From NCBI GenBank assembly GCA_016932475.1, contig JAFGCU010000049.1:1-64000 (forward strand): 64,000 nucleotides of DNA. The letters are read 5' to 3'. The stretch's first letter is position 1; every line of letters starts with the position of its first letter. The notes beneath the pieces are model-generated. The model worked only from the letters and a program-made list of their open reading frames with translations, was not told the DNA's origin and did not search any database. The stretch comes from Anaerolineales bacterium (GTDB lineage: Bacteria > Chloroflexota > Anaerolineae > Anaerolineales > RBG-16-64-43). The position numbers and the translations under genes were made by a program. This document shows positions 38,664 through 56,073 of the stretch, piece by piece.

Positions 38664-39719
38664 TTATTCCGGCGGCTTGGGGGCGGAAGCGGAGGGTTCG
38701 GTGGCGCGCGGGTCGTGCCCGGAAATCGGCGTCGAGGGAGGAAGAGGCGGCAGCGTTCCGGCGGCAAGCGCTTCGCGCACGAGTTCCTCCGGCGATTTGG
38801 GATGCAGCCATGCCAGCCAGCCGGCCCCGGGCGCCAGGCGGGTGGGGATCGGAGGCTCGCGCACGCCCAGAAGCACGCTGACCGCCATGAGGGCGCCGCC
38901 CAGCCATTGAGCCAGGCTGAGATTCTCGCCGAGCAGGGCTATTCCGAAGAACACCGTCACCAGCATCTCGGCCAGTCCGAGCAGCGATGTTTGCAGTCCG
39001 CCGATGTGCTTGACGCCGACAAACAGAGTCAGCCGCGACAGGAAAATTGCCAGCGTCATTCCGCCGAGCGCCAGCCATGAGGTTTGCGAATGCGCCGTGC
39101 CGTAGGAGGAATTAAACAGCAGCATCGGCAGCAGCACGGCCGCGGACGCCACGAGCGTGTAAAAGGTCACCGTCGGCGCCGGCACTTCATACAGCACGCG
39201 CTGATTAATGGGCAGGTGCAGCGCGTACAGCGCGGAGGAGGCCAGCATCAGCAGAACCCCGGTCAGATCGACCTGATGCGAGCCGGTGGAAGTGATCAGG
39301 ACGATAGCCGGGATGGCGATCGTCAGGCGGACGACGCTGAGCCGCGACGGCGCATACCCGTCGAGCAGCAGGAACAGCGCGACAAATCCGGGATACAACG
39401 AATAGATGATCGCGCCCAGACTGGTGTCGATGCGGGTGATCGCGCTGTAATAGAACAAAGCGCCCAGAGCGTTGATCCATCCCGCCAGCAAACAGCCGAT
39501 CAACCCCATCGGGTAAATCTGAAGCAGGCTGCGCTTGGCGGAGAAGATGATCAGAAACAGAAGCAGTGCAGCTCCGAGAGCCCGCAATCCGACCACTTCC
39601 ACCGGCAAGAATCCGCCGGCAAACGCCATCTTGCCAAGGGTCGGCGAAACGCCCAGGAAGAAAGCGGAGGAAAGCGCCGCGATAAGTCCGGTGCTCCGGC
39701 TGGTCCAGGTTCGCTTCAT
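38664..39719 (-). CDS. EamA/DMT-family transporter
   Basis: A 351-residue membrane protein with about ten helices in two EamA repeats, the fold of drug/metabolite exporters. The first repeat begins LIAALSSAFFLGVSPTLGKMAFAG; the second ends LAEMLVTVFFGIALLGENLSLAQWLGGALMAVSVLLG. A cytoplasmic tail of about 55 residues rich in Pro and Ser follows. It is the last gene of the long - strand signalling operon, 54 bases after the PLP-enzyme/receiver fusion. Since that enzyme is threonine-synthase-like, amino-acid export is a reasonable guess. Confidence 0.85.
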   Translation of the reverse strand: MKRTWTSRSTGLIAALSSAFFLGVSPTLGKMAFAGGFLPVEVVGLRALGAALLLFLIIFSAKRSLLQIYPMGLIGCLLAGWINALGALFYYSAITRIDTSLGAIIYSLYPGFVALFLLLDGYAPSRLSVVRLTIAIPAIVLITSTGSHQVDLTGVLLMLASSALYALHLPINQRVLYEVPAPTVTFYTLVASAAVLLPMLLFNSSYGTAHSQTSWLALGGMTLAIFLSRLTLFVGVKHIGGLQTSLLGLAEMLVTVFFGIALLGENLSLAQWLGGALMAVSVLLGVREPPIPTRLAPGAGWLAWLHPKSPEELVREALAAGTLPPLPPSTPISGHDPRATEPSASAPKPPE

Positions 39720-39773: not shown

Positions 39774-41462
39774 TCATTCGAGCGCCTTGTTGATCTCGGA
39801 AAACAGATCGTCGTCGAAGAACGTCCCCTTCTGAAGCAGCCGCTGGATCTGGCCGGTGAGCCGGCGGCGCTCCTCGGGCACCAGCATCTTGGCCGTCACC
39901 ACCACCACCGGAATGGACGCCAGGGCCGGATCCTTCTTCATGAGTTCCAGCAGCCCGAAGCCGTCCAAATCCGGCATCATCAGATCCATGACCACCAGGT
40001 CCGGGTTTTGCGCCCGGATGAATTCAAGCGCTTTGGTGCTTTCCGAAATCTCGCTGATTTCAAATCCGCCGCGCGCCTGAAGGATCCGCCGGATCAGGCG
40101 GACCGAATTCGGATCGTCGTCGACGATGACGATCTTGCGCAGCCGGAAATCCAGCCGGTTCAGCGCAGCGAGGAGCCCTTCGCGCGGCATTTCGATTTCG
40201 GTGGTTCCCGGCAGGGAGACTTCCGTTTCCCAGCCTTCGCCGAGAATGTCGCGGTCGATCGGCAGCGTGTGACCGGAGGCGTTGACCACCACGATATCAT
40301 CCGGATGGATGGTCCCTTGCCGGACGAGTTTGAACAAGCCGGCGAACGCGACCGAGGCGGCGGGTTCGAGCGAGATGCCTTCCATCTTCGCCACGATGTG
40401 GGTTGCCCGGAACGCCTCCTCGTCGGAAACCGATTCGAACGCCGCCCGCGAATCCGGCTTGGTAAGCTGGTTGCGCAACAGTTGGTATGTGCGGCCCGGA
40501 TCGCCGGTGGAGAGGGTGGAGATGTTTGTGATCGGAGAGACCACCACGTCCGGCTGGTCCATCCCGCGCTTCCAGGCCGAGGTCATCGGAGCGCACCCCT
40601 CAACCTGGACGATCGCGATCCCCGGCTTTTTGGATACCAAACCGAGGAGTTGTAATTCCTCGAATCCCTTTAACACGCCCAGCGGGCCCATCCCGCCGCT
40701 GACGGCCTGGATGTACCAATCCGGGCACCGCCACGGCGAAGATTTCAGTTTGCCGGTTCCGGAGAGCCTGGATCCCAGCAGCGGGGTGAGTTGCTCGGCC
40801 ATTTCGAAAGCGAGTGTCTTCATCGCTTCCACGGGAGTGATGCTGCGAGTCCCCTGGTCGATAAAAATCCCTTTTCGCTTGGCGAATTCCGCGGCCACCT
40901 GCTTGGTGTGGTCGTAGGTCCCCGTCACTTTAATCACCTGCGTGCCGTAAATCGCCACTTCCTGCATTTTGGCGGCGGGGACCATGCTGGTTAGGAACGC
41001 CCAGAGTTTGATCCCGGCCCGCGCGCAGTAGGCCGCGTACGAAATGGCGACGTTGCCCGTGGAGGCGACGACCGCCTCCTGGATGCCGGCCTCCTTGAGC
41101 GCCGCCACCGTCAGGGCGGCCTGACGGTCCTTGAACGACGCGGTCGGGCCCTGCCGCTCATCCTTGATGAACAGGTTTGGCAGCCCGAGCATCAGCCCCA
41201 GGTTGGGCGCATGATGCAGGGGCGTTCCGCCTTCCCCCAGCGTGACGATGTTGGCCGCATTGGAAATCGGCAGGAGATCCAGGTAGCGCCAGAAGTGGAA
41301 CGGCCTCTCGCGGAGCGAAAGGACGAATGTCTTCGCCAGCGTTTCATAGTCGTAGCGCGCCTGTCGCCAGGCGCTGTGGCATTTGGGACACAACGTGGTT
41401 CGGGGGGAATAGGGGGAAAGCGTACCGCAGTCGATGCACTCCACCACGAAATGCGCGGCCAT
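39774..41462 (-). CDS. Threonine-synthase-like PLP enzyme fused to a receiver domain
   Basis: A 562-residue fusion. Residues 9-28 form a zinc ribbon (CIDC and CPKC). Residues 60-430 are a fold-type II PLP enzyme close to threonine synthase, with the Schiff-base lysine K111 in PTASFKDRQ, ASTGNVAISYAAYCARAG and the VVNASGHT phosphate loop. Residues 441-562 are a response-regulator receiver (IVIVDDDPNSVRLIRR) with phospho-acceptor near D493 in VVMDLMMPDLDG. The usual receiver lysine near the end appears in LLQKGTF. An enzyme whose activity is switched by phosphorylation is inferred. It lies 81 bases after the giant hybrid kinase gene, its likely phosphodonor. Confidence 0.88.
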   Translation of the reverse strand: MAAHFVVECIDCGTLSPYSPRTTLCPKCHSAWRQARYDYETLAKTFVLSLRERPFHFWRYLDLLPISNAANIVTLGEGGTPLHHAPNLGLMLGLPNLFIKDERQGPTASFKDRQAALTVAALKEAGIQEAVVASTGNVAISYAAYCARAGIKLWAFLTSMVPAAKMQEVAIYGTQVIKVTGTYDHTKQVAAEFAKRKGIFIDQGTRSITPVEAMKTLAFEMAEQLTPLLGSRLSGTGKLKSSPWRCPDWYIQAVSGGMGPLGVLKGFEELQLLGLVSKKPGIAIVQVEGCAPMTSAWKRGMDQPDVVVSPITNISTLSTGDPGRTYQLLRNQLTKPDSRAAFESVSDEEAFRATHIVAKMEGISLEPAASVAFAGLFKLVRQGTIHPDDIVVVNASGHTLPIDRDILGEGWETEVSLPGTTEIEMPREGLLAALNRLDFRLRKIVIVDDDPNSVRLIRRILQARGGFEISEISESTKALEFIRAQNPDLVVMDLMMPDLDGFGLLELMKKDPALASIPVVVVTAKMLVPEERRRLTGQIQRLLQKGTFFDDDLFSEINKALE

Positions 41463-41543: not shown

Positions 41544-44500
41544 TTAGGTGGTCGTTTCGGTCGGAAGCGGCGTGGTAGGGCTCTTTTTGTCCGCGGGCAG
41601 CGGAGAGGTGGAGCTTTTCCGGTCCGCGCCAAGCGGCGAAGTGGACGGCCTTCTCTCGCCGGGAAGCGGCGAAGTGGATTTCTTGACTTCCATCGAAAGC
41701 GGCGATGTGCCGGGCACGCCCTTGTGCTCGTACAGCTTCAAGGCGCGGGCGATGCTCTCGAGCAGGTCGTGCTCGGAGAACTGCTCCTTGCGCAGGATCG
41801 CCTGGACCTGGCCGGAGATGCTCTCCAGTTGCTCGGGGCTCATATCGGCCGCGGATAAAACAATGATCGGGATGGCCTTGGTTTTCGGATTGCCCCGCAG
41901 GGCGGCTAGGACCTCGAACCCCGTCGATCCGGGCAACTGCAAATCGAGGAGGATCAGATTGGGCTGGTCGTTTTCCGCGCGTTCCACTCCGGTATTCCCT
42001 TCCGCCACCATCCGGATCGAGAATCCGCTTACCTTTTCCAAAATCCGCTGCACGATCTGGGCTTCGTCGGGATTGTCCTCGATGACCAGGACGTTGTAGG
42101 TTTTGCGATCGGGCTTCTCGAGCTTCTCGAGCGACGCCACCAGGTCCGATTCGAGGATCGGCTTCACCAGATAATCGGCGGCGCCCAGGCTCAGGCCGCG
42201 ACCGCGGTCCTCGGTGATGGTGCACAGAATGACCGGCAGCGGCCGCGTGACGGGATCCGACTTCAACTGCGCCAGGACCTGCCACCCGTCCGGTGAAGGC
42301 ATGTTGACGTCCAGCAGGATCGCGTACGGACGCAGTTCGCGGGCCATCGGAACCGCGCGGGCGCCGTCCGAGAGTTCGACGATCGTGTAACCGCGGGGTT
42401 CCAGGTAGCGCCGGTACAGTTGCACGACTCCGGCTTCGTTTTCGACGACCATCACGTTCTTGCGGCTGGCACCCTGCGCCGATTCCGTCGCAGACGCGGT
42501 CTTCGGCTGCAATGCGGGCAGGGTGAAGAAGAAGGTCGATCCCTTCCCCAGGATGCTGTCCACCCAGATCCGCCCGCCGTGCATTTCGATCAGGCGCTTG
42601 CAGATCGAAAGCCCCAACCCTGTGCCGCCGGTCCGGCGGGTGGGCGAGGCGTCGACCTGCGAGAATTCGGTGAACAGTTTCGGGAAGTGTTCCGCCGGGA
42701 TGCCCGAACCGGTGTCCGACACGCTGACGACAATCTCCGGATAGTCATCGGGGCTTGTCTGAAGTTTCGCTTCGATCACGATGCTGCCGGATTCCGTGAA
42801 CTTCGAGGCGTTGGAGAGCAGGTTCAAGAGCACCTGGCGGGTGCGGATCGGGTCGGCCCGGGCCAGCGGCAGGTCATCGGGGATGAACTGCGACAGGCGG
42901 ATGGGTTTGTCTTTGATCAGGCCGAGCGCGGACGCCGCCACGCTCTGGATCAGGTTGCGCATATCCACTTCCTCGAACGCCAATTCCATCTTGCCGGCGT
43001 CGATGCGCGAAATATCCAGGATGTCGTTGATCAGGCCCAAAAGATGCTGGCCGGCGTTGTGGATCGCGGTCAGGTCCTGGTTCTGAAGATCCGTGATCGG
43101 ACCGTCGATCCCCTTCAGGATGACGCGCGAAAAACCGATGATCGAGTTCAGCGGCGTCCGCAATTCGTGGCTCATGTTGGCCAGGAACTGGGTCTTCAGG
43201 CGGTCCGCTTCGCGCATTTCCTTGAGGGCTTCGCGCTCCACTTCATAGGACCGGGCGTTATCGAGCGCGACCGCCACCTGGTCCGCCAGGGATTGCAGAA
43301 CGGCGACGTCCGCCGGAAGGAAGGCGTTGGCCCGCGAAACGTGAATATCCAGCGCGCCAAGCATCCGGTCGCCGATTTTCAGCGGCAGCGCGAGCTGGGT
43401 TTTGGTATCCGGCAGCGAAGGAAGCGCGCGGTAATACGGATCCTTCGAGGAGTCCAGGGCTGCGTACGGTTTTCCGGTCTCCGTCACCTGGCCGACGATC
43501 GTTTTCGAGCCGACCCCGATGCTGTGTTTGGCTTCCTTCATCTGCACGCCGGGCTGGCCGGTGGCCTCGCGCACGACGGCGTACTTGCCCTGCTCGTCGA
43601 GCAGGTAGATGGCGGTGTGGTAGAACCCGAACCGTTCGCGCAGGAGGTTCACCGCGCGGGAAAGTAAAGTTCCGGTTTCCAGGGTGGAAGTGGCCAGGCG
43701 GCTGACTTCCGCCGCGATCTCCAGCTGCTGGGCGCGGCGCTGGGCTTGGTTCAGCAGGCGGTAGTTGTCGAGCGCGACCGAGAGCTGGGCGCCGACGGTT
43801 TCGAGGAACCGCACCTCAATGTGCGAGAACGGGTTGGCCGCCCGGCGCACGGCCTGGAGAATACCGATGTTCTCGCCGCGGACGCGCAACGGCACGGCGA
43901 CCATCGAAGCGATCGCGAGATCCGCCAGGATCGGGCGCACCATCCCCGACAGCCGGTCGTCGTCCTCGGCATGGTTGCTCACCACCGTCTGCCCGCTTTG
44001 CAGCAGGTCGAAGAACGGGTACAGCACACCGGGGAACCGCGTGCCGTCTTCCACCGAGGGCTGATCCGCGTCGGCCATGTGGGCGACTTGCTCGACGTAG
44101 GTTTGTCCGGTTTCTTCCCCGAAGATCTGGATAGAAATGCTGTTCAGCGCGACGGCGGTCCGGCACGAGTCGAGCGCTTCCTGCATCAACTGTTCCTCGC
44201 CGCTGGCTTTCTGAAGGCGCTGCGAGGTTTGGAACAGGTTCACCGCTTCGTGCAGGGCTTGTTCCGTCTGGTTGTGAAGGCGGGCGTTCTGAATGGCCGT
44301 CGACGCCTGGGTCACGATCGTTTCCGAAAGGCGCAATTCATCCGCGGTAAAGCTGCGGCCCTCCTCGAGGATGTGCATGCCGACCAGGCCGATCGTGTTG
44401 CCTTCGGCGACCAGCGGCAGGAGCACGAGGGTTCGCGTGCGGTGTTCGTGTTTTTCTCCCGGCAATAACGGGCGCAGCGGGTTCTCGCTGACGCCGGTGA

Positions 44501-47267
44501 AGATCGTCGGACCGCGTTCCACGATCGCTTTCTGCAGGATGGGAGAATCTTTGACCGAAACGAAAATCGTCGGGCTGGAGCGGTCCATGCGTCCGGGCTG
44601 GTCGCTCACCAGCGTCAGGGTGGATTTATCCTCGGAGAGCAGGGAGATACTGGCGTGACCGAGGGATAGCGCGCGGGCAAGCTCCGAGGCGATAGTATCC
44701 AGGCTGGTGAGCAGATCGAGGGAGCCTGCGACGGAAGATACGACCCGGTTTACCAGCGCGAGTTCCTGGGTGCGGGCGGCGGCTTGATGGAACAACCGCG
44801 CGTTCTCCAGGGCGAGCGCCAGCTGGTCGGTGATTTCCTCCGCCAGCATCCGGTCTTCATCCGTCCAGTAACGCTTGCCTTCTTCGTCGCGGAATTCGAG
44901 CACGCCCAGGATCTGGTCCTGAAGGCGGATCGGGACGGCCATGACCGAATTGGGTTCACCGTGTCCGTCGCCGCCCGGCTGGGAGATGACGAGCTCCCCG
45001 CTGGTCAGGGCTTTTTGCGTTTCCGGCGTGTTGTAGGCGTCCAAGCGCTGCACTCCGCCCATATCGTCGTGATAGAACACCGGTTGGACGGAGAACGGAT
45101 CGGATGTCTGAGATTTGGCCGCCAGGCTGCGAAGCGATAACGGGCCGGTTCCCTTGAAGGGAGTCAACGGTCCCGATTTTTTAACCGGTTGCGGCGCGGG
45201 CGGGGGGGCGGGCTTTGGCGTTTCCTGTGCCGGTTCGGCGATTGCGGGTTTGGTCTCCGGAGCAGGCGGCTGGATTATTTCCGCTGCCGGGGGTTGTGCC
45301 ATCGCTGGAATCGGGATTGTGGTGGGCGGCTGGAATTCCGGAGCTGCCGGAGCAGGCTCAACGATCGGAGCCGCGGGCGCTACCGGTGCTTCGTCCGGAG
45401 GGGCGGGAGGGGGTGCGGATTCCATCACCGCCTCGGTCGATAATGGCGCGGGGGCGGATTCAGGCGCCGACGGTGTTGCGGGAAAGACCGGTTTATCGAT
45501 GACCGGCAACTCGAGCGCGAATTCCGGAACCTGCGCCGGTGTTTCCGGAGCGGGGACAGACGACAGGAACGACGGAATAGCGGGCTCGGCCTCGTCTTGG
45601 ACGGTCGGGATTTCCTGTTCCACGAGGAACGGACGGACCGGCGGCGCCGGCGCGGGCGCATCCGCCGGCTCGACGACCGACGGGGTGGAGACCGGTTCGA
45701 TTTCCGGCTCGGGCGCTTCCGTCAGCTCGATGGCCGCCGGGGTGGAGACCGGTTCGATTTCCGGCTCGGGCGGGCTCACTTCGGATTCCATCGGGGGAAC
45801 AGACTGATCCCGCTCGGATCTTTGCTTAAAGGAAGGCGCGATCGACGGCAGGAGTTCTTCCAGCGAAGGCCTACGGATATGCTTGTCGGGCGCAACCGAT
45901 CCGGATTCCAGCAGTTCGGAGATGCTTGGCAGCGCGTGTTTTTCGGGAAGCGGTCTGGTGGGTTTCTTCTTGACAGGGGCGGTTGCATCCTCCGCCATCG
46001 GTCGGGTGATCCGCTTCTTTGGCGTGACGTCCGCGGGCGTTTCCACGGAGCGGACCGCCTCGGTTGTGACCAACGGCCGGGTCAAGCGACGCTTGAGCGG
46101 AGCGGGTGCGGGAGTCTCGACCACCGGAACGCCGGCGGTTGTCGCGAAGGGCTTGGTGGTTCGTTTTTTAACTGCTGTGATATCGGGCGTCTTCGCCGTG
46201 ATGGGTGCGGCGGCCGGGGCAAGGGTTTTACTGGGACGCTTTTTCGTGGTGCGCGGGGAGGGTTCGGCCGCCACCGGCTCCGGAGGAACGGGTCTAGTGA
46301 TCCGTTTCCTGGGCGCGGCGGTTTCAACCGGCGGGGCCGTTTCCACTGGCGGTTTGGCGGCCCGTTTTTTTGGAACGACGGCTGGGGGAATTTCCCCTAT
46401 CTCCGGAAATGCGACAACCGGTTTTGTGATCCGGCGTTTTTGAGAGGGAACGGGGGCTGGCTCGGGAAGCACGTCCGCCGGGCCGGCGATCCGTTTCTTG
46501 CGCGGCGCGGGAGCGGCCGCTTCCGCATGCCGTGCGGGTTTGAGATGCGGTAATGCAGGCGTTTGTGCGATCGCCGCTTTGGAGGGTTTGCGGGGCAGGG
46601 TGACTTTTTGCGCGCCGGGAATGGCTGTCGGAAGCGCGATTCCTTCGCCGGCTTCGGGGGCTGCTTTCCTTGCCGAAGCGGCCCGTTTTTTTGAGACGGG
46701 AGCGGCTGTTCGCGGAGCCGGTTCCGCAGGAACCGGTGCCTCCGGAACGGGCGCGCGTTTTGGGGTCCGCTTGACGGCCGGCGCGGGCATTGGCGGGCCC
46801 GCCGGTTTGCGGCTGCGGACCGCGCTTGGCACGGGCGCGGCAGATTGCAGGACCTGAACGACAGCCCGGTAGGTTGAGGGCTGGCCTTCCTCGTCCATCC
46901 GCGGCAGCGCATTCATCAGCAGCAGGATCATCGACCCGTTGCGGTGATTGGCCGTCAGGAACAGGTTGTCGATCGGTTCACCCGCCTCGATGGCCGCCCG
47001 TAGTTTATCGGCGGATTCCGGAAGCAGCCCGCAGTCTTCCATCGGGCGCCCTTTGGCCTGCGAAGCCCTCAGCCCCAGGAGCGGGAAGATCTCATCCGAA
47101 CACCACAGGCTGTTGCCTTCGGCGTCGAATTCCCAAACCCAGCCGCTCGGTGCCGCGGCGGGTTCGCTCGCCCGGCGCGCCTTCCGATCGGGCGCGGCCG
47201 GGACCTCGGGTTCCGAGATTCCCGCAAAAAGGGTCTCAAGCTGGTTGAGCGATCGCTTGATGGACAT
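41544..47267 (-). CDS. Giant hybrid histidine kinase with four GAF domains and two receivers
   Basis: A 1907-residue soluble kinase. Order: PAS-like domain (about 42-140, GWVWEFDAEGNSLWCSDEIF); Pro/Ala/Lys-rich disordered region (141-695) with nine KKRxTRP-like basic motifs; GAF domains near 736-826, 843-993, 1010-1173 and 1190-1337; HisKA with H1367 in NMSHELRTPLNS; HATPase with LLNLLSNASKF, DTGSGIP and GTGLGLSICKRL; receivers at about 1605-1718 (LLDVNMPSPDG) and 1724-1845 (LLDLQLPGSTG); and a tail of five 11-residue repeats. The ATG at 47267 lies 32 bases inside the end of parA; a longer frame exists upstream but overlaps parA more. It is the only kinase in the operon and may serve the lone receivers and the PLP-enzyme receiver. 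Confidence 0.92.
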   Translation of the reverse strand: MSIKRSLNQLETLFAGISEPEVPAAPDRKARRASEPAAAPSGWVWEFDAEGNSLWCSDEIFPLLGLRASQAKGRPMEDCGLLPESADKLRAAIEAGEPIDNLFLTANHRNGSMILLLMNALPRMDEEGQPSTYRAVVQVLQSAAPVPSAVRSRKPAGPPMPAPAVKRTPKRAPVPEAPVPAEPAPRTAAPVSKKRAASARKAAPEAGEGIALPTAIPGAQKVTLPRKPSKAAIAQTPALPHLKPARHAEAAAPAPRKKRIAGPADVLPEPAPVPSQKRRITKPVVAFPEIGEIPPAVVPKKRAAKPPVETAPPVETAAPRKRITRPVPPEPVAAEPSPRTTKKRPSKTLAPAAAPITAKTPDITAVKKRTTKPFATTAGVPVVETPAPAPLKRRLTRPLVTTEAVRSVETPADVTPKKRITRPMAEDATAPVKKKPTRPLPEKHALPSISELLESGSVAPDKHIRRPSLEELLPSIAPSFKQRSERDQSVPPMESEVSPPEPEIEPVSTPAAIELTEAPEPEIEPVSTPSVVEPADAPAPAPPVRPFLVEQEIPTVQDEAEPAIPSFLSSVPAPETPAQVPEFALELPVIDKPVFPATPSAPESAPAPLSTEAVMESAPPPAPPDEAPVAPAAPIVEPAPAAPEFQPPTTIPIPAMAQPPAAEIIQPPAPETKPAIAEPAQETPKPAPPPAPQPVKKSGPLTPFKGTGPLSLRSLAAKSQTSDPFSVQPVFYHDDMGGVQRLDAYNTPETQKALTSGELVISQPGGDGHGEPNSVMAVPIRLQDQILGVLEFRDEEGKRYWTDEDRMLAEEITDQLALALENARLFHQAAARTQELALVNRVVSSVAGSLDLLTSLDTIASELARALSLGHASISLLSEDKSTLTLVSDQPGRMDRSSPTIFVSVKDSPILQKAIVERGPTIFTGVSENPLRPLLPGEKHEHRTRTLVLLPLVAEGNTIGLVGMHILEEGRSFTADELRLSETIVTQASTAIQNARLHNQTEQALHEAVNLFQTSQRLQKASGEEQLMQEALDSCRTAVALNSISIQIFGEETGQTYVEQVAHMADADQPSVEDGTRFPGVLYPFFDLLQSGQTVVSNHAEDDDRLSGMVRPILADLAIASMVAVPLRVRGENIGILQAVRRAANPFSHIEVRFLETVGAQLSVALDNYRLLNQAQRRAQQLEIAAEVSRLATSTLETGTLLSRAVNLLRERFGFYHTAIYLLDEQGKYAVVREATGQPGVQMKEAKHSIGVGSKTIVGQVTETGKPYAALDSSKDPYYRALPSLPDTKTQLALPLKIGDRMLGALDIHVSRANAFLPADVAVLQSLADQVAVALDNARSYEVEREALKEMREADRLKTQFLANMSHELRTPLNSIIGFSRVILKGIDGPITDLQNQDLTAIHNAGQHLLGLINDILDISRIDAGKMELAFEEVDMRNLIQSVAASALGLIKDKPIRLSQFIPDDLPLARADPIRTRQVLLNLLSNASKFTESGSIVIEAKLQTSPDDYPEIVVSVSDTGSGIPAEHFPKLFTEFSQVDASPTRRTGGTGLGLSICKRLIEMHGGRIWVDSILGKGSTFFFTLPALQPKTASATESAQGASRKNVMVVENEAGVVQLYRRYLEPRGYTIVELSDGARAVPMARELRPYAILLDVNMPSPDGWQVLAQLKSDPVTRPLPVILCTITEDRGRGLSLGAADYLVKPILESDLVASLEKLEKPDRKTYNVLVIEDNPDEAQIVQRILEKVSGFSIRMVAEGNTGVERAENDQPNLILLDLQLPGSTGFEVLAALRGNPKTKAIPIIVLSAADMSPEQLESISGQVQAILRKEQFSEHDLLESIARALKLYEHKGVPGTSPLSMEVKKSTSPLPGERRPSTSPLGADRKSSTSPLPADKKSPTTPLPTETTT
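41547..41708 (-). repeat. Five 33-bp coding repeats (TSPLP tail of the giant kinase)
   Basis: The kinase C-terminus is five units of 11 residues (the last is 10): TSPLSMEVKKS, TSPLPGERRPS, TSPLGADRKSS, TSPLPADKKSP, TTPLPTETTT. The DNA shows matching 33-base periodicity (AGCGGCGAAGTGGA-type words). Each unit pairs Ser/Thr-Pro with a basic stretch. Confidence 0.85.
45682..45772 (-). repeat. 57-bp tandem duplication inside the giant kinase linker
   Basis: A stretch beginning GGGGTGGAGACCGGTTCGAT at 45682 recurs exactly at 45739, a 57-base period. It encodes two 19-residue units containing PEPEIEPVSTP in the acidic Pro-rich part of the linker. The near-identity at DNA level points to recent duplication. 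Confidence 0.85.
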
Positions 47268-48012
47268 ATTCTTCCAACTCCTGAGCCAGCGCCCGGTATT
47301 GCTGGGCGGCCCGGCTTTCGGGGGCGTACTCGGTGATCGGCTTTCCGACCACCGGGCATTCGCGCAATTTTGTGTCGTTCTCGATTGCGGTCGCAAAGAC
47401 CGCATTTCCGAACGCGGAACGGATCTGTTCCTGCAGCGTCCGATGGACTCGGGTCTTCCCGAGCATGGTGATCATGACCCGGTAGCGCAGCGAAGGATTG
47501 GAGCGCTGGCGGATGTTGCGGATCAGGTCCAGCATCTCGCGCAGCGAATGGGCGGAGAAAAACTCGCACTGGGTCGGAATGATCAACAGGTTCGATGCGG
47601 TCAGGGCGTTGATGGTCAGCGCGCCCAGCGACGGCGGGCAATCCAGGAGAACCATGCTGTACATGTCGGCTTTCGCCAGCGCCTTGCGCAGCAGATGCTC
47701 GTAGTTCTGGCGGACGTACAGGAATCGTTCGACCATCAGCATCTCTCCGGAGGCGGGGATCAGGTCCAGCCCGGGAACGGAGGTCTCGCGCGAGACGCTC
47801 AACACCGATGTGTTGCCCAGCAGGAGATCGGCCACCGATCGGCGGATCTGCGCCGGCTGGATACCCAGCGCGAGAGTCAGGTTGGCCTGGGGATCCAGGT
47901 CCACCAGGAGAATCTCCTGGCCGCTCTCGACCAGGGCAGCGCCAATGGAGAGGGTCGAGGTGGTTTTGGCGACTCCGCCTTTTTCATTGGCGATGGCGAC
48001 GATGGTTGTCAT
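47236..48012 (-). CDS. ParA/Soj-family ATPase
   Basis: A 258-residue P-loop ATPase with the deviant Walker A KGGVAKTT, the switch LVDLDPQANLTLALG, and VLLDCPPSLGALTINAL. No ParB gene is adjacent, and it sits inside a signalling operon rather than near an origin. ParA-like proteins without ParB are known to place chemosensory arrays and other large complexes in the cell; here it may position the multi-GAF/kinase assembly. It overlaps the giant kinase gene by 32 bases and follows a strong hairpin in the spacer upstream. Confidence 0.9.
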   Translation of the reverse strand: MTTIVAIANEKGGVAKTTSTLSIGAALVESGQEILLVDLDPQANLTLALGIQPAQIRRSVADLLLGNTSVLSVSRETSVPGLDLIPASGEMLMVERFLYVRQNYEHLLRKALAKADMYSMVLLDCPPSLGALTINALTASNLLIIPTQCEFFSAHSLREMLDLIRNIRQRSNPSLRYRVMITMLGKTRVHRTLQEQIRSAFGNAVFATAIENDTKLRECPVVGKPITEYAPESRAAQQYRALAQELEEYVHQAIAQPA

Positions 48013-48140: not shown

Positions 48141-50360
48141 TCAGGATGCGCTCGGGCCGGCGGGTCCCTTGGGTTCCTCGATCTTCGCGGGCCGGACCGG
48201 CCCGACCATGACGGTGCCGCTTGAGATGCCGAGCGCCCGGCGGAGCTCGCTGACCGCCGTCTGTAAAATGGAAGAAATATCGTTGCTGGACCGGATGCGG
48301 CCGGTGATTTCAACCACCTTCCGTTCCCGTTCCGCGCGCTGGGATACCTGGCTGAACAGGCGGGCGTTTTGCACGGCGACCGCCAGCTGTCCGGAAAGCG
48401 TCTGCAGGATCGCGATCTCATCCGCGCCGAAAGCATTGATCTTGGCGGAATGAATATCCAGGACGCCGATGACCCGCCCGGCGACGATCAGGGGGATGCC
48501 GAGCTCCGATTTCGACTCCGAGAGCAACGGATCCGCCTGATAATTCGAATCCTTCTTCAGGTTGTTGACGGCGAAGAGCACGCCGGTGGAGAGTACGTGC
48601 CCGACGACCGATTGCGAATTGGCGGTGTAGAACGCGCGCCGGGCGACAAGGTCCACCCCGGCCTGCCCGGAGGCGGCGTAGGCGGCCGCGGCCTGGTCCT
48701 GCTCGTCCATCAGGTACACCGCGGCGTGCGAGAAGCCGAACCGCTCGCGGATCAGTTCGACCACGCGGCGCAGCAACAGGTCCAGGTCGAGGGTTGTACT
48801 GGCGTCGCGGGCGATTTCGTTCGCGGTTTGCAGATAGGCGGCGCGCTGGGTCAGCTCGGAATACAGGCGCGCATTTTCGAGCGCCAGCGCCGCCTGGGTG
48901 GTGACCGCATCAATGAAGGTCAGGTCATCCTGGGTGATTTCCTTTTCCCCCGTATCGAGCGTAAGCGCGCCGATCACCTGTTCGCGCAGGATGAGAGGCG
49001 CGGTGATCTGGGAACCGTCCGCGCTGCGCGTAATGCTGCTCGGGACGGCTGCCGTTTCGTAGGAAGGACCGAGCGGGGTGATGATCTCCTCGCCGTTGGT
49101 TTCGCTGCTCTCCACCGAAAGCGAGAGATCCGAAGTCTGATCCACGTCCTTCCACGCTTCCGACATGTAGCGCCGGTTCAGCGCGCGGACTTCTTCGCGG
49201 TCCAACTGGGATTGCGCGTTGAGCCGCGCCATCTCCAGCCCGTGGGCCAGGGTCTGGGAAATCCCGCGCAAGGTCAGGATATCCGAGTCGTCGAAGGCGT
49301 TGACCGTTTCGGATTGAACATCCAGCACGCCCAGGATCCGGTCGCCGATCAGCAGCGGGATGACCAGTTCCGACCGGCCCGTGGAAAGCGGATTGTCTTT
49401 TTCGATCGGGCGGTCGCCTTCGGAAAAGATGCGCTTGCCGTCGGCGGCTTGTCTGACGAGCGAGGTCGATTCCTCCGGATGGCGGTATCCGCGGCCGATT
49501 AGGCGCTGAGCTTCCGGGGTGGATCCGGCCCGCAGGACGAGCGACGGACCGGGTTCCTCCAAAAGAAAGATCGCCGCCGAGGAAAGATTCATGCGTTGCT
49601 GCAGAACTTCCATTACCGATTGCAGCAGGATCAGCGGCTTCCGTTCGGCGCCGGCCGCCATCGAGGTCTCCGCCAGAGTCCGGAGCTGAATGATCCGCTG
49701 GTCGAGCAGTTTTTTGTTCTCGGCGATCCGGCGGATGAGTTCCTGATGCTCGTTCTGCAGCGCCTCGGCAAGCTGCTTTTCCATCTGCAGCGAGACGCGC
49801 ATCTCGCGGTTGTAAATGGCGGAAATGCTGATGAGGACCGCCAAACCAAGCCCGAGTCCGACCGCATCGGGCCAGATGGTGCGGAGCGGGGCGAACCCGT
49901 CCGGAACGGCGATGGTTCCCGATTGCTGAAGCAGTCCGATGACCAGGTGCGCCATCATGCTGAGGAACGCGAAGAGGATCCCGCTCCGGGTGCTGATGAG
50001 GATCGCCGCGGTCAGGGTGGCCATCGCGTAGCCGACGTATATGGCGTGGCCGAGCCCGAGCGCGATCGAAGCGTACATCATGACCAGGAAGATGCTGACG
50101 ACCGGGAAGTAGGTCGCCAAGCGGACCTGGCCGCGCCGGGCGAGAAAGATGGCGGCCAGATACACCGGCTGAACGACGAGCCCGGCGATCACGCCCACCC
50201 AGGGGCCCCCGCTGAGGAGCGCGATGGCTGCACTCATCAGCGCGAATAAAGCGCCGGTCAGCGCAAGCCCGATGACCACCAGGTAGAATAGATTCTCCTG
50301 CCGGGCTTCGTCCGGATTCTTGGAAACAGGAGGAAAGAGGCGGGTGATCCGATCCAGCAT
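48141..50360 (-). CDS. Multi-TM protein with three GAF domains, no kinase
   Basis: A 739-residue sensor. About six membrane helices occupy residues 24-195; a coiled coil (MEKQLAEALQNEHQELIRRIAENKK in part) follows; then GAF-like domains near 240-390, 400-515 (reduced) and 525-680. The GAF cores end in the usual NARL helix (ALENARLYSEL, AVQNARLFSQV). There is no HisKA, HATPase or other output. The C-terminus (VVEITGRIRSSNDISSILQ, then ELRRALGIS) is a truncated GAF start that matches the end of the neighbouring 1489-residue protein. It may form a scaffold or sense a ligand and signal through contact with the giant kinase. Confidence 0.88.
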   Translation of the reverse strand: MLDRITRLFPPVSKNPDEARQENLFYLVVIGLALTGALFALMSAAIALLSGGPWVGVIAGLVVQPVYLAAIFLARRGQVRLATYFPVVSIFLVMMYASIALGLGHAIYVGYAMATLTAAILISTRSGILFAFLSMMAHLVIGLLQQSGTIAVPDGFAPLRTIWPDAVGLGLGLAVLISISAIYNREMRVSLQMEKQLAEALQNEHQELIRRIAENKKLLDQRIIQLRTLAETSMAAGAERKPLILLQSVMEVLQQRMNLSSAAIFLLEEPGPSLVLRAGSTPEAQRLIGRGYRHPEESTSLVRQAADGKRIFSEGDRPIEKDNPLSTGRSELVIPLLIGDRILGVLDVQSETVNAFDDSDILTLRGISQTLAHGLEMARLNAQSQLDREEVRALNRRYMSEAWKDVDQTSDLSLSVESSETNGEEIITPLGPSYETAAVPSSITRSADGSQITAPLILREQVIGALTLDTGEKEITQDDLTFIDAVTTQAALALENARLYSELTQRAAYLQTANEIARDASTTLDLDLLLRRVVELIRERFGFSHAAVYLMDEQDQAAAAYAASGQAGVDLVARRAFYTANSQSVVGHVLSTGVLFAVNNLKKDSNYQADPLLSESKSELGIPLIVAGRVIGVLDIHSAKINAFGADEIAILQTLSGQLAVAVQNARLFSQVSQRAERERKVVEITGRIRSSNDISSILQTAVSELRRALGISSGTVMVGPVRPAKIEEPKGPAGPSAS

Positions 50361-50483: not shown

Positions 50484-53400
50484 TCACGGCTGATCTCCCG
50501 TACCGCCGCCGTTGTCTTCCTCCGGAGCGGTGGTGTCGCCCAAGCCGATCTTGATGCTGGCGCGCTTGGCGCCGAGCGCGCGGCTGAGTTCGCTCGCCGT
50601 GGTGGTGAGAATGCCCTGCATGTCGACCGAGCGGCGGATGCGGCTTGTGATTTCAAACAGAAGGTGCTCGCGTTCCGCCTGGCGGCGGGTCTGATCGAAG
50701 AGGCGCGCGCTTTCGAGGTTGGCCGCCACCTGCAGGGCGAGCAGATTCGCCAGTTGGACTTCCTCGGTCGAAAACGCCCGCTCGGAAGCCATCCGCGAAA
50801 GCAGCAGCGCGCCGATCGTGCGGCCGGTCCATTGCAGCGGAAGCGCCAGCGCGGTCTTGATGCCTGCCTGGGCCAATGAGCGCGAAAGGGTCCCGGTCGA
50901 GGCGGGCGAGTATTTGACGGTTTGGTTGGTGGAAAGCGCTTCGCCGATCACATCCTGCCCGTAATGGGCGACCAGCCCGGTGATGTGCTTGAGGTGCGGT
51001 TCGCAGGTGCACATCTCGATCTTGACCTCGTCCTTCCCGGATGGGAAGGCGATCGACACGCAATCCGCGCCCGACACGCTGCGGACTCGTTCCAGCGCGG
51101 ACCGCATCAGGCTCTCCATATCGCCGGAGGGCGGGCCGGCCATGCCGATCGCTTCCTCGTACAGGTGCCGCAGGCGTTCCCGTTCCTGGGTCACCTGCTC
51201 GAACAGCACGGTCGAGGCCATGATCGCGGCAAGCGAACCCGCGACCGTGCCGAGCAGTTGCACATCATCCTCCGAAAATGCCGAGAAGTGCGGGCTCTGG
51301 ATGTCCATCACGCCGAGAAGTTCGTCGCGGTGGATCAGCGGCACGCACAATTCGGATTGAATGTCCGGGTCGATCATCAGGTAGCGGCTGTCCGCCGCGG
51401 TGCTGGCCACCAGCGACGGCTGCTTGTTGCTGGCCACCCAGCCCTGCACGCCCTGCCCGAGCGGCACGCGCATCGTGCCGACTTCGCGCGAGTTAAACCC
51501 GGAATGGGCCCGGACCACCAACGTGTCCTTTTCCGGGGAGAGCAGGAACAGGGCCACCCGGGCGCCGTTCATGGTGACTCGCAAGCCCTGCGCGGCGCTG
51601 AAGAGGGCGTTATCGAGCGAGGTGGAGGAGGCGGCTGCCGTGGTGACCTGGTACAGGGATCGGTGGCGGGCGAGGTATTCGCGCGTCGTGGAGAACAGCC
51701 GCGCGTTTTCCACCGCGATCGCGATCTGGTCGGCGATGACCTGGAGGATGGTGATGTCGTCGGGGGCGAACGCGTACGGCAGAGTCGATTGGACGTCCAG
51801 AGCGCCGATGACCGTTTCCCCGATGCGGAGCGGGATGCCGAGTTCCGCGCGCGTGGCCGGGAGCAGCGGATTGGGCTTGTGCATCGGGTCGGCGGTGACG
51901 TCGTCGGCCACGCGCGGGCGGGCGTTTTCCGTGACCCACCCGACGATGGATTGCGACCCGACTCCGAGTTTGTGCTCGCGGGCTTTCATCTGACGCCCGG
52001 CCTCACCGGTTGATTCCCGCAGCAGCGCGAATTTCCGTTCCTCGTCGAGCAGAAACACCGATGAATGGTAGAACCCGAACCGTTCGCGGATCAGGTTGAT
52101 CGAGTGGGAAAGCAGCCGGTCCAGATCCAGAAGGCCGATGGTTTCGCGGGCAATTTCGGCCGCCGTCTGCAGCTGGACCGCTTTCCGCTCCGATTCCTGG
52201 AGCAGGGAGGACGTGCGGATCGTCGAGGCGATCTGGGTCGCGATGGTCGAAAGCATCCGCAGATCGTTGTCCTTGAAGCGGTTGGCCTTCTCCGTGTCCA
52301 GGAGGATCAGCGCGCCCACCACCTGGCCGGCGGTGATCAGCGGCACGCCCAGCCAGGATTGCGGAACGACGCCCGAGAGTCGGATGCCGGTGGAGAGCTG
52401 CTTTTCCACCCAGGCCTGGGGGATGATGCCGGGCAGGTGCACGCCGAGCGCCGCGGCCCGCTCCTCGACGTTTTCTTCGAGCAGCAGCGGTTGGGCGTTG
52501 CGGATGACTAGTGTGTACAGACTGTCGCCCATGGCGATCGTGTCGAGGTTAACGGTCTCGCCGCGGATGTATGCATAGGGGAACGAAAGCAGATCGCGGT
52601 TGGCATCGTAAAGCGTGATGATGATGTCCACATCGCCCAGGGCGTTGCGGGTCTGCTCATGCACGGTCTCGAACAGCCCCTGCAGATCCGTGGCCTGGGA
52701 GATGGATTGGCTGATCCGGTTCAGCGTGGCCAGTTCCGAGAGCCGGCTCTGGGTCGTCTGCAGAAGCTCGAGGCGTTCCAGCGCAGAGAGAATGGATTCG
52801 GCGATGGGTGTCAGCGGCCGGATACTGGCGGGGGTGATCGCGTTTTCATCGCGCGAGGCCAGCAGCAGCACGCCGAGCAACCGTTCGCCCTGGCGCAGCG
52901 GGAGGAAGGCCGCCGCGCGGCATCCGAGCGTATCCAGATACTGGCGGATGTTGCCCGGCAGGCGGACGATGCCGGATTCCACCTTCACGATCAGCGGTGT
53001 GTTGGAGGGAACCAGGCGAGATACGGTGTCCGGATCCTCCGCGATTTCCGTCACCGGCGCCTGAACCGCTTCGGGGCTGACCGGATCATAAAAACCGGCG
53101 ATGGTCATGGAGGAGGCGCCCGACTCAAGAATGGTCACCACGTAGGGGGTGCCTTTCATGCCGTCGATGACGGATTTGAATATCTCTTCCGGGCTCGAGG
53201 CCAAGGCAATCAACCGGCCGACGCGGAACAGCTGCTGGGAGACTTCGGTGCTCACGCGCGCGGTTTCCACCGTCTGAACGTTTTGAATGGCGGCGCCGGT
53301 CTGATCGGCGATCGATTGCAGCAATTCCATATCCTGCGGTTGGAATCCGTTCACGCTGTTGGAATGGACATCCAAAACGCCGATCGTCCGCTTGTTGACC

Positions 53401-54953
53401 CGGATCGGAAGCGCGGCTTCCGAACGGGTGTCGGGAAGCAGATCGTTGCGGATGTACATCGGATCTTCGGTTACATTGGGCGCCAGATGCGCACGCCCGG
53501 ATTGCGCCACCGATCCGATGATCGAATACGAACCCAGCGGGAAACGGTTGACCGCCGCCTTGAGCTTCTCGCCGGCGGCACCGGTTGCCTCGCGGACCAG
53601 CGCAAACTGACCGGCGTCATCCACCAGATAGATGGAGGCGAAATCGGACCCCAGCCGGTCCCGGACCAGGTTGACCACAATCCGGAGTGTGTCTTCCAGC
53701 GAGGCTGCGCCCGTCAGCAACTGGACCAGTTCGGCCGACACCACAATCTTGCGGGTCGACGATTGACCGTCGGAACCGACCAGCGTGGAGACCTCCCGCA
53801 GGGAACCGGTCAACCGGGCAAGCGAGGTGGCCAGCAACTCGAATTCGGAAGTCGCGTACATGGGTATTTGTTCGTCGCTGTGGCCGGAGGCGAGCCGGGC
53901 CACCGCCGTCGTGATTCGTCTGGTGGGGCGGATGATGAAGAAGACCGACTGAACAGTGGAAAGGACCAGCGCGATGAATATGCCGACGCCGATCATGATC
54001 AGAGCGGTGTTAATCTTGTTGAAGGACGCGTATACCCTGGACTGGTTCCGCTCAATAAGGATCTTGGTCTGGGAGGAAGCCGGTTCCTGATCCCCGACGA
54101 GGTTGTAAATGGCGATGTTCTGCGTGTATCCAACCACCGGCAGGCCGAGGATCCCCGTGTATTCGGAGACCACGCCGGCCGTCAGGGGGATTTGGGCCTG
54201 GTTGGTGTCCAGGATGAACTGCATTCCCGTGAAGGTGCCCGTCTCGGGGTTGGTCCGGAAAAAGGAGGAATCCCGGAAGGTGAGAATAATGGAATGCGCC
54301 TTGGCATTGTTCAGCGGCACCGATAGGACCGAGTATAGACCCGTGTTCTGAAGCAGGCCGATCAGCACCAAGCCGGACTTGCGGGCGGATGTCTGGATCG
54401 GAGCGCCTGCCAGGACAACGAACGCGGAGGGGCTTAAGAGCGCGTGGTTGACCTGACTGAACGAGAAGGGAAGGGTCCAATCCGGGGCGGGGGTGATTGC
54501 ACTGCTGCCGGTCAGGGTCAACCCTTCCCAATCGGCGTTGCTGGACGCCACGATCGTGCCCGTGGCCGGGTCGACGACCAAGAAGTTGGCGAAAACGTTC
54601 CCCCTGGGTACGAGGCGGTAAATGGCGTTGAAGAATGCGGTTTTGGAACTTGCCGTGGATTCCAGCGCAATCGCGGCCTGCACGATGGTCTCATCCCGGC
54701 TGATGGCTTGTATGCTTTCATACCCGTCCGATTGCCAAATTCGGGCTTTCGCGCTTACCCCCTCAAATTCCGCGATGAGTTCGGCGGAAACCTCCTGTTT
54801 GATGCTGTCACGGCTCTGCGAATATCCGATCCAGCCCATGATGGCGGGCAGAATGATCACCGGCAGCAGAATCCCGATGAAGGCCAGCATCAGGTTGCGC
54901 GGGGTCAAAAGGTTTACGAGTGGGTTCGACCGAATTCCAGATCGCTCAGCCAT
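50484..54953 (-). CDS. Sensor with extracytoplasmic domain, HAMP and six GAF domains, no kinase
   Basis: A 1489-residue membrane protein. A helix at about 18-44 and another at 318-340 enclose an extracytoplasmic Cache-like domain (FANFLVVDPATGTIVASSNADW). A HAMP segment follows (FIIRPTRRITTAVARLASGH), then six GAF-like domains in line to about residue 1420. The fourth and first are most alike (RERFGFYHSSVFLLDEERKF; RDRLGSDFASIYLVDDAGQF). No kinase or other effector is present. It ends with the same partial GAF helix module as the protein encoded at 48141 (FEITSRIRRSVDMQGILTT). Output must pass through partner proteins, probably the soluble kinase of the same operon. Confidence 0.9.
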   Translation of the reverse strand: MAERSGIRSNPLVNLLTPRNLMLAFIGILLPVIILPAIMGWIGYSQSRDSIKQEVSAELIAEFEGVSAKARIWQSDGYESIQAISRDETIVQAAIALESTASSKTAFFNAIYRLVPRGNVFANFLVVDPATGTIVASSNADWEGLTLTGSSAITPAPDWTLPFSFSQVNHALLSPSAFVVLAGAPIQTSARKSGLVLIGLLQNTGLYSVLSVPLNNAKAHSIILTFRDSSFFRTNPETGTFTGMQFILDTNQAQIPLTAGVVSEYTGILGLPVVGYTQNIAIYNLVGDQEPASSQTKILIERNQSRVYASFNKINTALIMIGVGIFIALVLSTVQSVFFIIRPTRRITTAVARLASGHSDEQIPMYATSEFELLATSLARLTGSLREVSTLVGSDGQSSTRKIVVSAELVQLLTGAASLEDTLRIVVNLVRDRLGSDFASIYLVDDAGQFALVREATGAAGEKLKAAVNRFPLGSYSIIGSVAQSGRAHLAPNVTEDPMYIRNDLLPDTRSEAALPIRVNKRTIGVLDVHSNSVNGFQPQDMELLQSIADQTGAAIQNVQTVETARVSTEVSQQLFRVGRLIALASSPEEIFKSVIDGMKGTPYVVTILESGASSMTIAGFYDPVSPEAVQAPVTEIAEDPDTVSRLVPSNTPLIVKVESGIVRLPGNIRQYLDTLGCRAAAFLPLRQGERLLGVLLLASRDENAITPASIRPLTPIAESILSALERLELLQTTQSRLSELATLNRISQSISQATDLQGLFETVHEQTRNALGDVDIIITLYDANRDLLSFPYAYIRGETVNLDTIAMGDSLYTLVIRNAQPLLLEENVEERAAALGVHLPGIIPQAWVEKQLSTGIRLSGVVPQSWLGVPLITAGQVVGALILLDTEKANRFKDNDLRMLSTIATQIASTIRTSSLLQESERKAVQLQTAAEIARETIGLLDLDRLLSHSINLIRERFGFYHSSVFLLDEERKFALLRESTGEAGRQMKAREHKLGVGSQSIVGWVTENARPRVADDVTADPMHKPNPLLPATRAELGIPLRIGETVIGALDVQSTLPYAFAPDDITILQVIADQIAIAVENARLFSTTREYLARHRSLYQVTTAAASSTSLDNALFSAAQGLRVTMNGARVALFLLSPEKDTLVVRAHSGFNSREVGTMRVPLGQGVQGWVASNKQPSLVASTAADSRYLMIDPDIQSELCVPLIHRDELLGVMDIQSPHFSAFSEDDVQLLGTVAGSLAAIMASTVLFEQVTQERERLRHLYEEAIGMAGPPSGDMESLMRSALERVRSVSGADCVSIAFPSGKDEVKIEMCTCEPHLKHITGLVAHYGQDVIGEALSTNQTVKYSPASTGTLSRSLAQAGIKTALALPLQWTGRTIGALLLSRMASERAFSTEEVQLANLLALQVAANLESARLFDQTRRQAEREHLLFEITSRIRRSVDMQGILTTTASELSRALGAKRASIKIGLGDTTAPEEDNGGGTGDQP

Positions 54954-55462: not shown

Positions 55463-55891
55463 CTAGGTTCCTCGGGACTTGCGCAAGTACTTGGAGATTT
55501 GCCAGGGTAGTTGGTCGATGTCGACCGGCTTCTGGATATACCCGTCGCAACCCGCTTCCAGCACCCGTTCGCGGTCGCCTTTCATGACATTCGCCGTCAG
55601 AGCGACAACCGGGATGTGAGCGAGGCGGGGGGTGGCCCGGATCCTCGCCGTGAGGGTGTACCCGTCCACTTCGGGAAGGTTGATGTCCATCAGGATCAGG
55701 TCGGGCGGATCGGAGAGGGCCAGCTTCAATGCCTGTTGCGCATCCCCGGCTTCGAGCACTTCATACCCTTCGGCCATCAGCACCCGTCGGATCAGCAGGC
55801 GGTTATCCGGATAGTCCTCGATGTAAAGGATCCGGAGGGGTTTTTCTTCGGATTGGGCGGTGAAATCGTTGATAGAAGTATAGTTGTACAC
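55463..55891 (-). CDS. Single-domain response regulator, first gene of the signalling operon
   Basis: A 142-residue receiver-only protein: ILYIEDYPDNRLLIRRVL, phospho-acceptor in LILMDINLPEVDGYTLTARI, IPVVALTANVM and the lysine in GYIQKPVDIDQLP. This DivK-like pattern is common in phosphorelay carriers. A GTG at 55891 is chosen because CAGGAAGGTGAG lies just before it and the longer upstream frame is Arg/Gly-rich and unlike any domain. Divergent from the MFS exporter gene. It is translated just before the second receiver. Confidence 0.85.
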   Translation of the reverse strand: MYNYTSINDFTAQSEEKPLRILYIEDYPDNRLLIRRVLMAEGYEVLEAGDAQQALKLALSDPPDLILMDINLPEVDGYTLTARIRATPRLAHIPVVALTANVMKGDRERVLEAGCDGYIQKPVDIDQLPWQISKYLRKSRGT

Positions 55892-56073
55892 CGACCACTC
55901 ACCTTCCTGAACACGATACTGGCGTGATGATCGAAAAGACCTTCCCCGCTCCGGGCCGGTTCCCCTCCGGCCTGCCAGATTCATTCCCAGAATCCGGAAT
56001 CGGCCCAATCAGGCAACCCGTGCAAAAAACACGCCTGCCAGGTCGATCTGGACAAATAATGGCTGTGAAATCG

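Follow-up and report, generated by a model that had tools for sequence, protein, structure and literature searches.

The minus strand of a 64,000-nucleotide contig stretch from an Anaerolineales bacterium (the window) carries, at positions 39774-41462, a single unbroken open reading frame (ORF) encoding a 562-residue protein in which a PLP enzyme domain (PALP) is fused to a response-regulator receiver (REC). In most response regulators the output acts on transcription, cyclic-di-GMP or chemotaxis. We propose, with a probability of roughly 0.7, that PALP-REC is a response regulator whose output is a PLP enzyme and that the neighbouring kinase controls it. The output would be a zinc-ribbon PLP fold-type-II enzyme of a distinct threonine-synthase-related subfamily, with a putative amino-acid substrate; the histidine kinase encoded directly upstream would phosphorylate the C-terminal receiver on D493, and signals passing through a GAF-based sensor complex would alter the activity or assembly of the enzyme. 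We infer the phosphotransfer, the catalytic activity and the sign of the regulation. The conserved fusion and kinase arrangement suggest an enzyme that is switched directly by environmental signalling.

The fusion protein and its conserved residues

The earlier note on this DNA described a threonine-synthase-like enzyme carrying its own response-regulator domain. The fusion is borne out: the one ORF matches both PF00291 (198.8 bits against a Pfam gathering score of 35) and PF00072 (Response_reg, residues 444-546, 68.9 against 30.2 bits), and the arrangement is recurrent. The features of the gene are as follows.

39774..41462, minus strand: PALP-REC fusion gene (ORF and Pfam; relatives in 146/396 genomes of the class)
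41379..41438, minus strand: N-terminal zinc ribbon, C9/C12/C25/C28, invariant across 39 fused proteins
40275..41246, minus strand: PLP fold-type-II (PALP) domain, aa 73-396 (PF00291, E 1.7e-58; closest PDB folds are threonine synthases)
41130..41132, minus strand: PLP Schiff-base lysine K111 (SFKDRQ), in 79/79 fused relatives covering the position
40677..40700, minus strand: glycine loop SGGMGPLG, aa 255-262, which replaces the GNAGN of ThrC
40143..40250, minus strand: linker between the two domains, aa 405-440 (modelled by AF2 with partly low confidence)
39777..40136, minus strand: C-terminal receiver (REC), aa 443-562 (PF00072, E 5e-19; nearest relative is the terminal REC of the kinases)
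39984..39986, minus strand: predicted phospho-acceptor D493, in 80/80 fused proteins
39828..39830, minus strand: conserved receiver lysine K545, in 80/80 fused proteins

The PLP lysine and the zinc ribbon are intact, as had been claimed. Eighty fused proteins were aligned, of which one is truncated at K111, leaving n = 79 for that count; the STGN loop (S134-N137) is likewise present in all 79 sequences covering the site. The phosphate loop, also described as intact, is indeed a conserved glycine loop, with S255, G256, G259 and P260 found in 80/80 members of the fused family, but it reads S-G-G-x-G-P and is not the classical GNAGN, which the genome's own ThrC retains. The PLP phosphate is expected to lie in this loop (aa 255-260). 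Judged by these residues, the PALP part is an intact-looking PLP enzyme.

The receiver is equally well preserved. Its acidic pair is D448/D449 (residue 448 is D or E, and D449 is present, in 80/80), the phospho-acceptor falls exactly at D493 as the earlier note had placed it, and residue 523 is T in PALP-REC and T or S in all 80. The note had allowed that the receiver might prove degenerate in orthologues; at D449, D493, T/S523 and K545 there is not one degenerate case among the 80 fused relatives.

The operon around PALP-REC

The minus-strand cluster around the fusion gene looks like one operon, judging from the order and strand of its genes: a REC protein, a HAMP-GAF protein, a GAF protein, a ParA-like ATPase, a hybrid kinase, PALP-REC and an EamA transporter. 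Scans for promoters and terminators did no better on the sequence than on shuffles.

55463..56008, minus strand: REC protein, probable operon head (PF00072)
50484..54953, minus strand: HAMP-GAF-repeat protein, 1489 aa (Pfam)
48141..50360, minus strand: GAF-repeat protein, 739 aa (GAF proteins recur upstream in relatives)
47236..48012, minus strand: ParA/MinD-like ATPase (PF13614; recurrent in relatives' loci)
41544..47405, minus strand: giant hybrid histidine kinase, up to 1953 aa (GAF repeats, HisKA, HATPase, REC, REC)
41739..42131, minus strand: terminal receiver domain of this kinase, a homologue of the receiver in PALP-REC (30% identity)
38664..39719, minus strand: EamA-family transporter (PF00892), 54 bp downstream of PALP-REC

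The only kinase of the operon does lie directly upstream of PALP-REC, as previously stated, with a gap of 81 bp. Its first ATG overlaps the ParA gene, so the actual start may be near 47267. The kinase contains a Pro/Ala/Lys-rich low-complexity stretch with KKRxTRP-type repeats between its N-terminal part and the GAF repeats (45100-46800), and finishes with a tail of TSPLP-like repeats (41547-41723; STSPLPGERRPSTSPLGADRKSSTSPLPADKKSPTTPLP). The recurrence of a ParA/MinD-like ATPase in a sensory operon may indicate that the complex is spatially organised.

The transporter scores below the TIGR00950 cut-off, and an EamA gene is found downstream of PALP-REC in 32/72 loci. Some EamA-family transporters carry amino acids. 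One could imagine the operon as a signal-gated pathway, in which the phosphorylation-controlled PLP enzyme makes an amino-acid-derived molecule that EamA exports and that the GAF domains of the kinase complex perhaps sense. We consider this doubtful; if true, it would be a two-component system with a small amino-acid signal as its output.

Pairing with histidine kinases

Among the 78 loci with enough upstream sequence, 62 have a same-strand histidine kinase gene that ends no more than 500 bp upstream of the PALP-REC start (median gap 23 bp), in some cases overlapping it, and the H-box is intact in 61 of these 62 kinases. In type A loci one or two receivers usually form the end of the kinase; where there are two, they could compete for its phosphate. 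In type B loci the kinase mostly has no receiver of its own and a stand-alone REC usually lies 3' of PALP-REC, so that PALP-REC and the small neighbouring REC are the nearest acceptors. Other gene orders often place a REC-HisKA-HATPase protein 3' of PALP-REC, followed by EamA or by none. The other genes nearby likewise encode signalling proteins (REC-HisKA-HATPase, stand-alone REC, GAF proteins and ParA); no HPt domain was seen.

No kinase adjoins PALP-REC at some loci (L053, L144, L122-L124, L139 and L152), while its apparent absence at L115, L118 and L010 reflects gene-calling or spacing effects. Two of the kinase-less copies, L053:9294-10958 and L144:7595-9403, share a context of peptide deformylase, ZIP transporter, xanthine-dehydrogenase-type protein and NUBPL-like ATPase. 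These two copies would need a kinase in trans.

The PALP receiver and the terminal receiver of the kinases share ancestry: for 86/86 PALP receivers, the nearest non-PALP class in the receiver tree is the kinases' terminal receiver. Distances between kinases and between receivers also correlate beyond what PALP distances account for (partial Mantel over all loci, partial r 0.39, p 0.0005). The correlation is significant in type B loci and borderline when only non-B loci are used (partial r 0.14, p 0.055), and this covariation weakly supports the pairing.

Common ancestry can also be read differently. PALP-REC, whose receiver is C-terminal, could be a detached part of the kinase, and its PALP domain a ligand sensor: with PLP and an amino acid bound, it would modulate the flow of phosphate through its receiver to neighbouring kinases and receivers. 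The signalling neighbours on both sides, a hybrid kinase upstream and a REC-HisKA-HATPase protein or small REC downstream, would suit such a role. The invariant catalytic lysine, STGN loop and glycine loop, however, fit turnover, and in the window's gene order the downstream EamA transporter hints at a product or substrate. We regard a sensor role as unlikely and favour an enzyme as the output of the receiver.

Relationship to threonine synthases

The threonine-synthase label fares less well than the fusion itself. The resemblance is real: the solved structures closest to the PALP part, with about 30% identity, are those of threonine synthases, and the best NCBIfam models for PALP-REC are those of threonine synthase. 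PALP-REC shares PLP fold type II, the SFKDR lysine motif and the STGN loop with threonine synthase (TIGR00260; PRK08197), and the N-terminal zinc ribbon is common to PALP-REC and PRK08197. Yet it falls below the cut-off of every ThrC model, scoring 232.5 against 303 for PRK08197 and 135.2 against 167.1 for TIGR00260. It further differs from threonine synthase in having SGGxGP in place of GNAGN, in the replacement of the positions for the substrate phosphate and in the added C-terminal receiver. The genome already encodes a bona fide ThrC at C88 (280.7) and a PRK08197 protein at C112 (557.4).

In the alignment to threonine synthases, a check that had been suggested, N154, R160, N188 and R242 of the Thermus enzyme, all retained in the C88 ThrC, are replaced in the fused family (R160 by A/S/T/G/P and N188 by G). 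We take S155, R160 and N188 of Thermus ThrC to be contacts to the phosphate of O-phosphohomoserine; the alignment has gaps around S155, so that its state in the fused family is uncertain. PRK08197-type paralogues also lack N188 while retaining R160 and R242, and loss of N188 alone is therefore not telling. In the tree the fused proteins form a separate clade (support 100/99) on a long branch.

It could still be argued that PALP-REC is a genuine threonine synthase and that the two-component system sets its flux. Its nearest structures and models are threonine synthases, a type B paralogue barely passes TIGR00260 (168.2 against 167.1), and amino acids are among the substrates of some EamA-family transporters. 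Against this stand the sub-threshold scores of the window protein, the ThrC and PRK08197 proteins already in the genome, the residues replaced in the fused family and retained in the C88 ThrC, and the long, separate branch. A threonine synthase under two-component control is thus quite unlikely; threonine synthase proper was rejected on the cut-offs, the replaced residues and the separate clade, and by the available tests PALP-REC appears not to be one.

Cysteate synthase (TIGR03844; PDB 9k3c, CapA2) shows full-length similarity across the zinc ribbon and PALP domain. It has no receiver, and PALP-REC is far below the TIGR03844 cut-off (107.9 bits against 324.9). A cyanobacterial threonine-synthase-like protein with both synthase and threonine deaminase activity has been described (PMC12172450).

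Distribution of the fusion

Strong relatives of PALP-REC are present in 146/396 sampled genomes of its own class, representing 83/223 genera, and each of the class matches listed runs into the receiver, reaching residue 534 of 562 or beyond. Outside the class, matches occur in one genome of another family (G455) and in six genomes of one genus (f92/g281); all of those listed likewise reach into the receiver. The concern that the fusion might be unique to its own assembly can be set aside: because it recurs in many independent genomes, including the single-contig G014, G268 and G401, an assembly chimera or artefact is ruled out.

The same genome carries a second fused paralogue, of type B, at C112, with 48% identity to the window's PALP-REC. 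Its neighbours are a small REC protein and a threonine-synthase-like protein that carries no fusion; the gene of the latter, of PRK08197 type, lies directly 3' of the other two (L046:5537-6952). PALP-REC-REC variants with a second receiver, about 710-810 aa long, occur at L130, L136, L138, L139 and L141. At L085:8897-10474 a 525-aa frame joins the N-terminal half of PALP to an EamA transporter, perhaps by deletion or misassembly.

At E <= 1e-60, relatives were found in 0/199 genomes of the phylum of an Acidobacteria locus and in 0/249 of the phylum of an Acetobacteraceae locus, both partial samples in which emptiness proves little. In the phylum of a Cyanobacteria locus, 4/194 genomes (again a partial sample) have unfused relatives of about 50% identity (L161, L162, L163 and L164), which share the SGGMGP loop. 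At L162 the PALP forms the end of an 829-aa open frame at a contig edge, the first part of which looks glycoside hydrolase-like by eye. In the tree these unfused proteins nest within the fused clade with moderate support, as if they had lost the receiver.

The existence of unfused relatives indicates that the enzyme can apparently work without a receiver, and it has a bearing on whether the receiver might be an accessory domain, serving oligomerisation or as a phosphate sink, with no regulation of the enzyme. The linker is also partly of low confidence: pLDDT is below 50 at aa 399-409 and 420-432, and no domain docking was taken from the AF2 model because its confidence is low for the linker and for some of the receiver. 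A mere oligomerisation domain, however, would be expected to lose its phospho-chemistry residues in some lineages, and these are fully conserved in 80 proteins, as is kinase adjacency. We consider an accessory role very unlikely, and regulation of the enzyme through its receiver the better reading.

Comparison with known systems and implications

Response regulators with an enzymatic output are known, among them CheB and PdeR (PMC12471899). In these, a receiver with all phospho-chemistry residues is fused to an enzyme, as in PALP-REC, which also sits beside a histidine kinase. The output of PALP-REC differs in being a PLP amino-acid-type enzyme, and its receiver is C-terminal to the enzyme. 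Amino-acid enzymes had been said to be regulated normally by effectors rather than by two-component phosphorylation; this is a fair generalisation, but receivers on metabolic enzymes have been noted before (PMC5847659). In archaea, receivers are fused to a BcsA-like glycosyltransferase, thioredoxin reductase, pyruvate phosphate dikinase and a KaiC-family NTPase (Galperin et al. 2018, PMC5847659). The principle of a receiver attached to an enzyme is the same. Those fusions are reported to be narrow in distribution, confined to a family or genus (PMC5847659), whereas PALP-REC spans much of a class, usually with its kinase. We found no PLP, PALP or threonine-synthase protein fused to REC in the open papers searched, and a mention in Galperin 2006 or 2010 is possible. 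A receiver on an enzyme is therefore an established principle; the PALP output and the unusually broad conservation appear to be the new part.

In these genomes some proteins annotated as threonine synthase probably have another identity, which makes pathway predictions that count them suspect. PALP-REC represents a widespread lineage, apparently an old one, in which a histidine kinase pathway would have a PLP amino-acid-type enzyme as its output, and the enzyme has usually been inherited along with its kinase. The enzyme and its kinase are a defined protein pair for testing such control. If this is confirmed, two-component phosphorylation would here control amino-acid-type chemistry directly, at the post-translational level.
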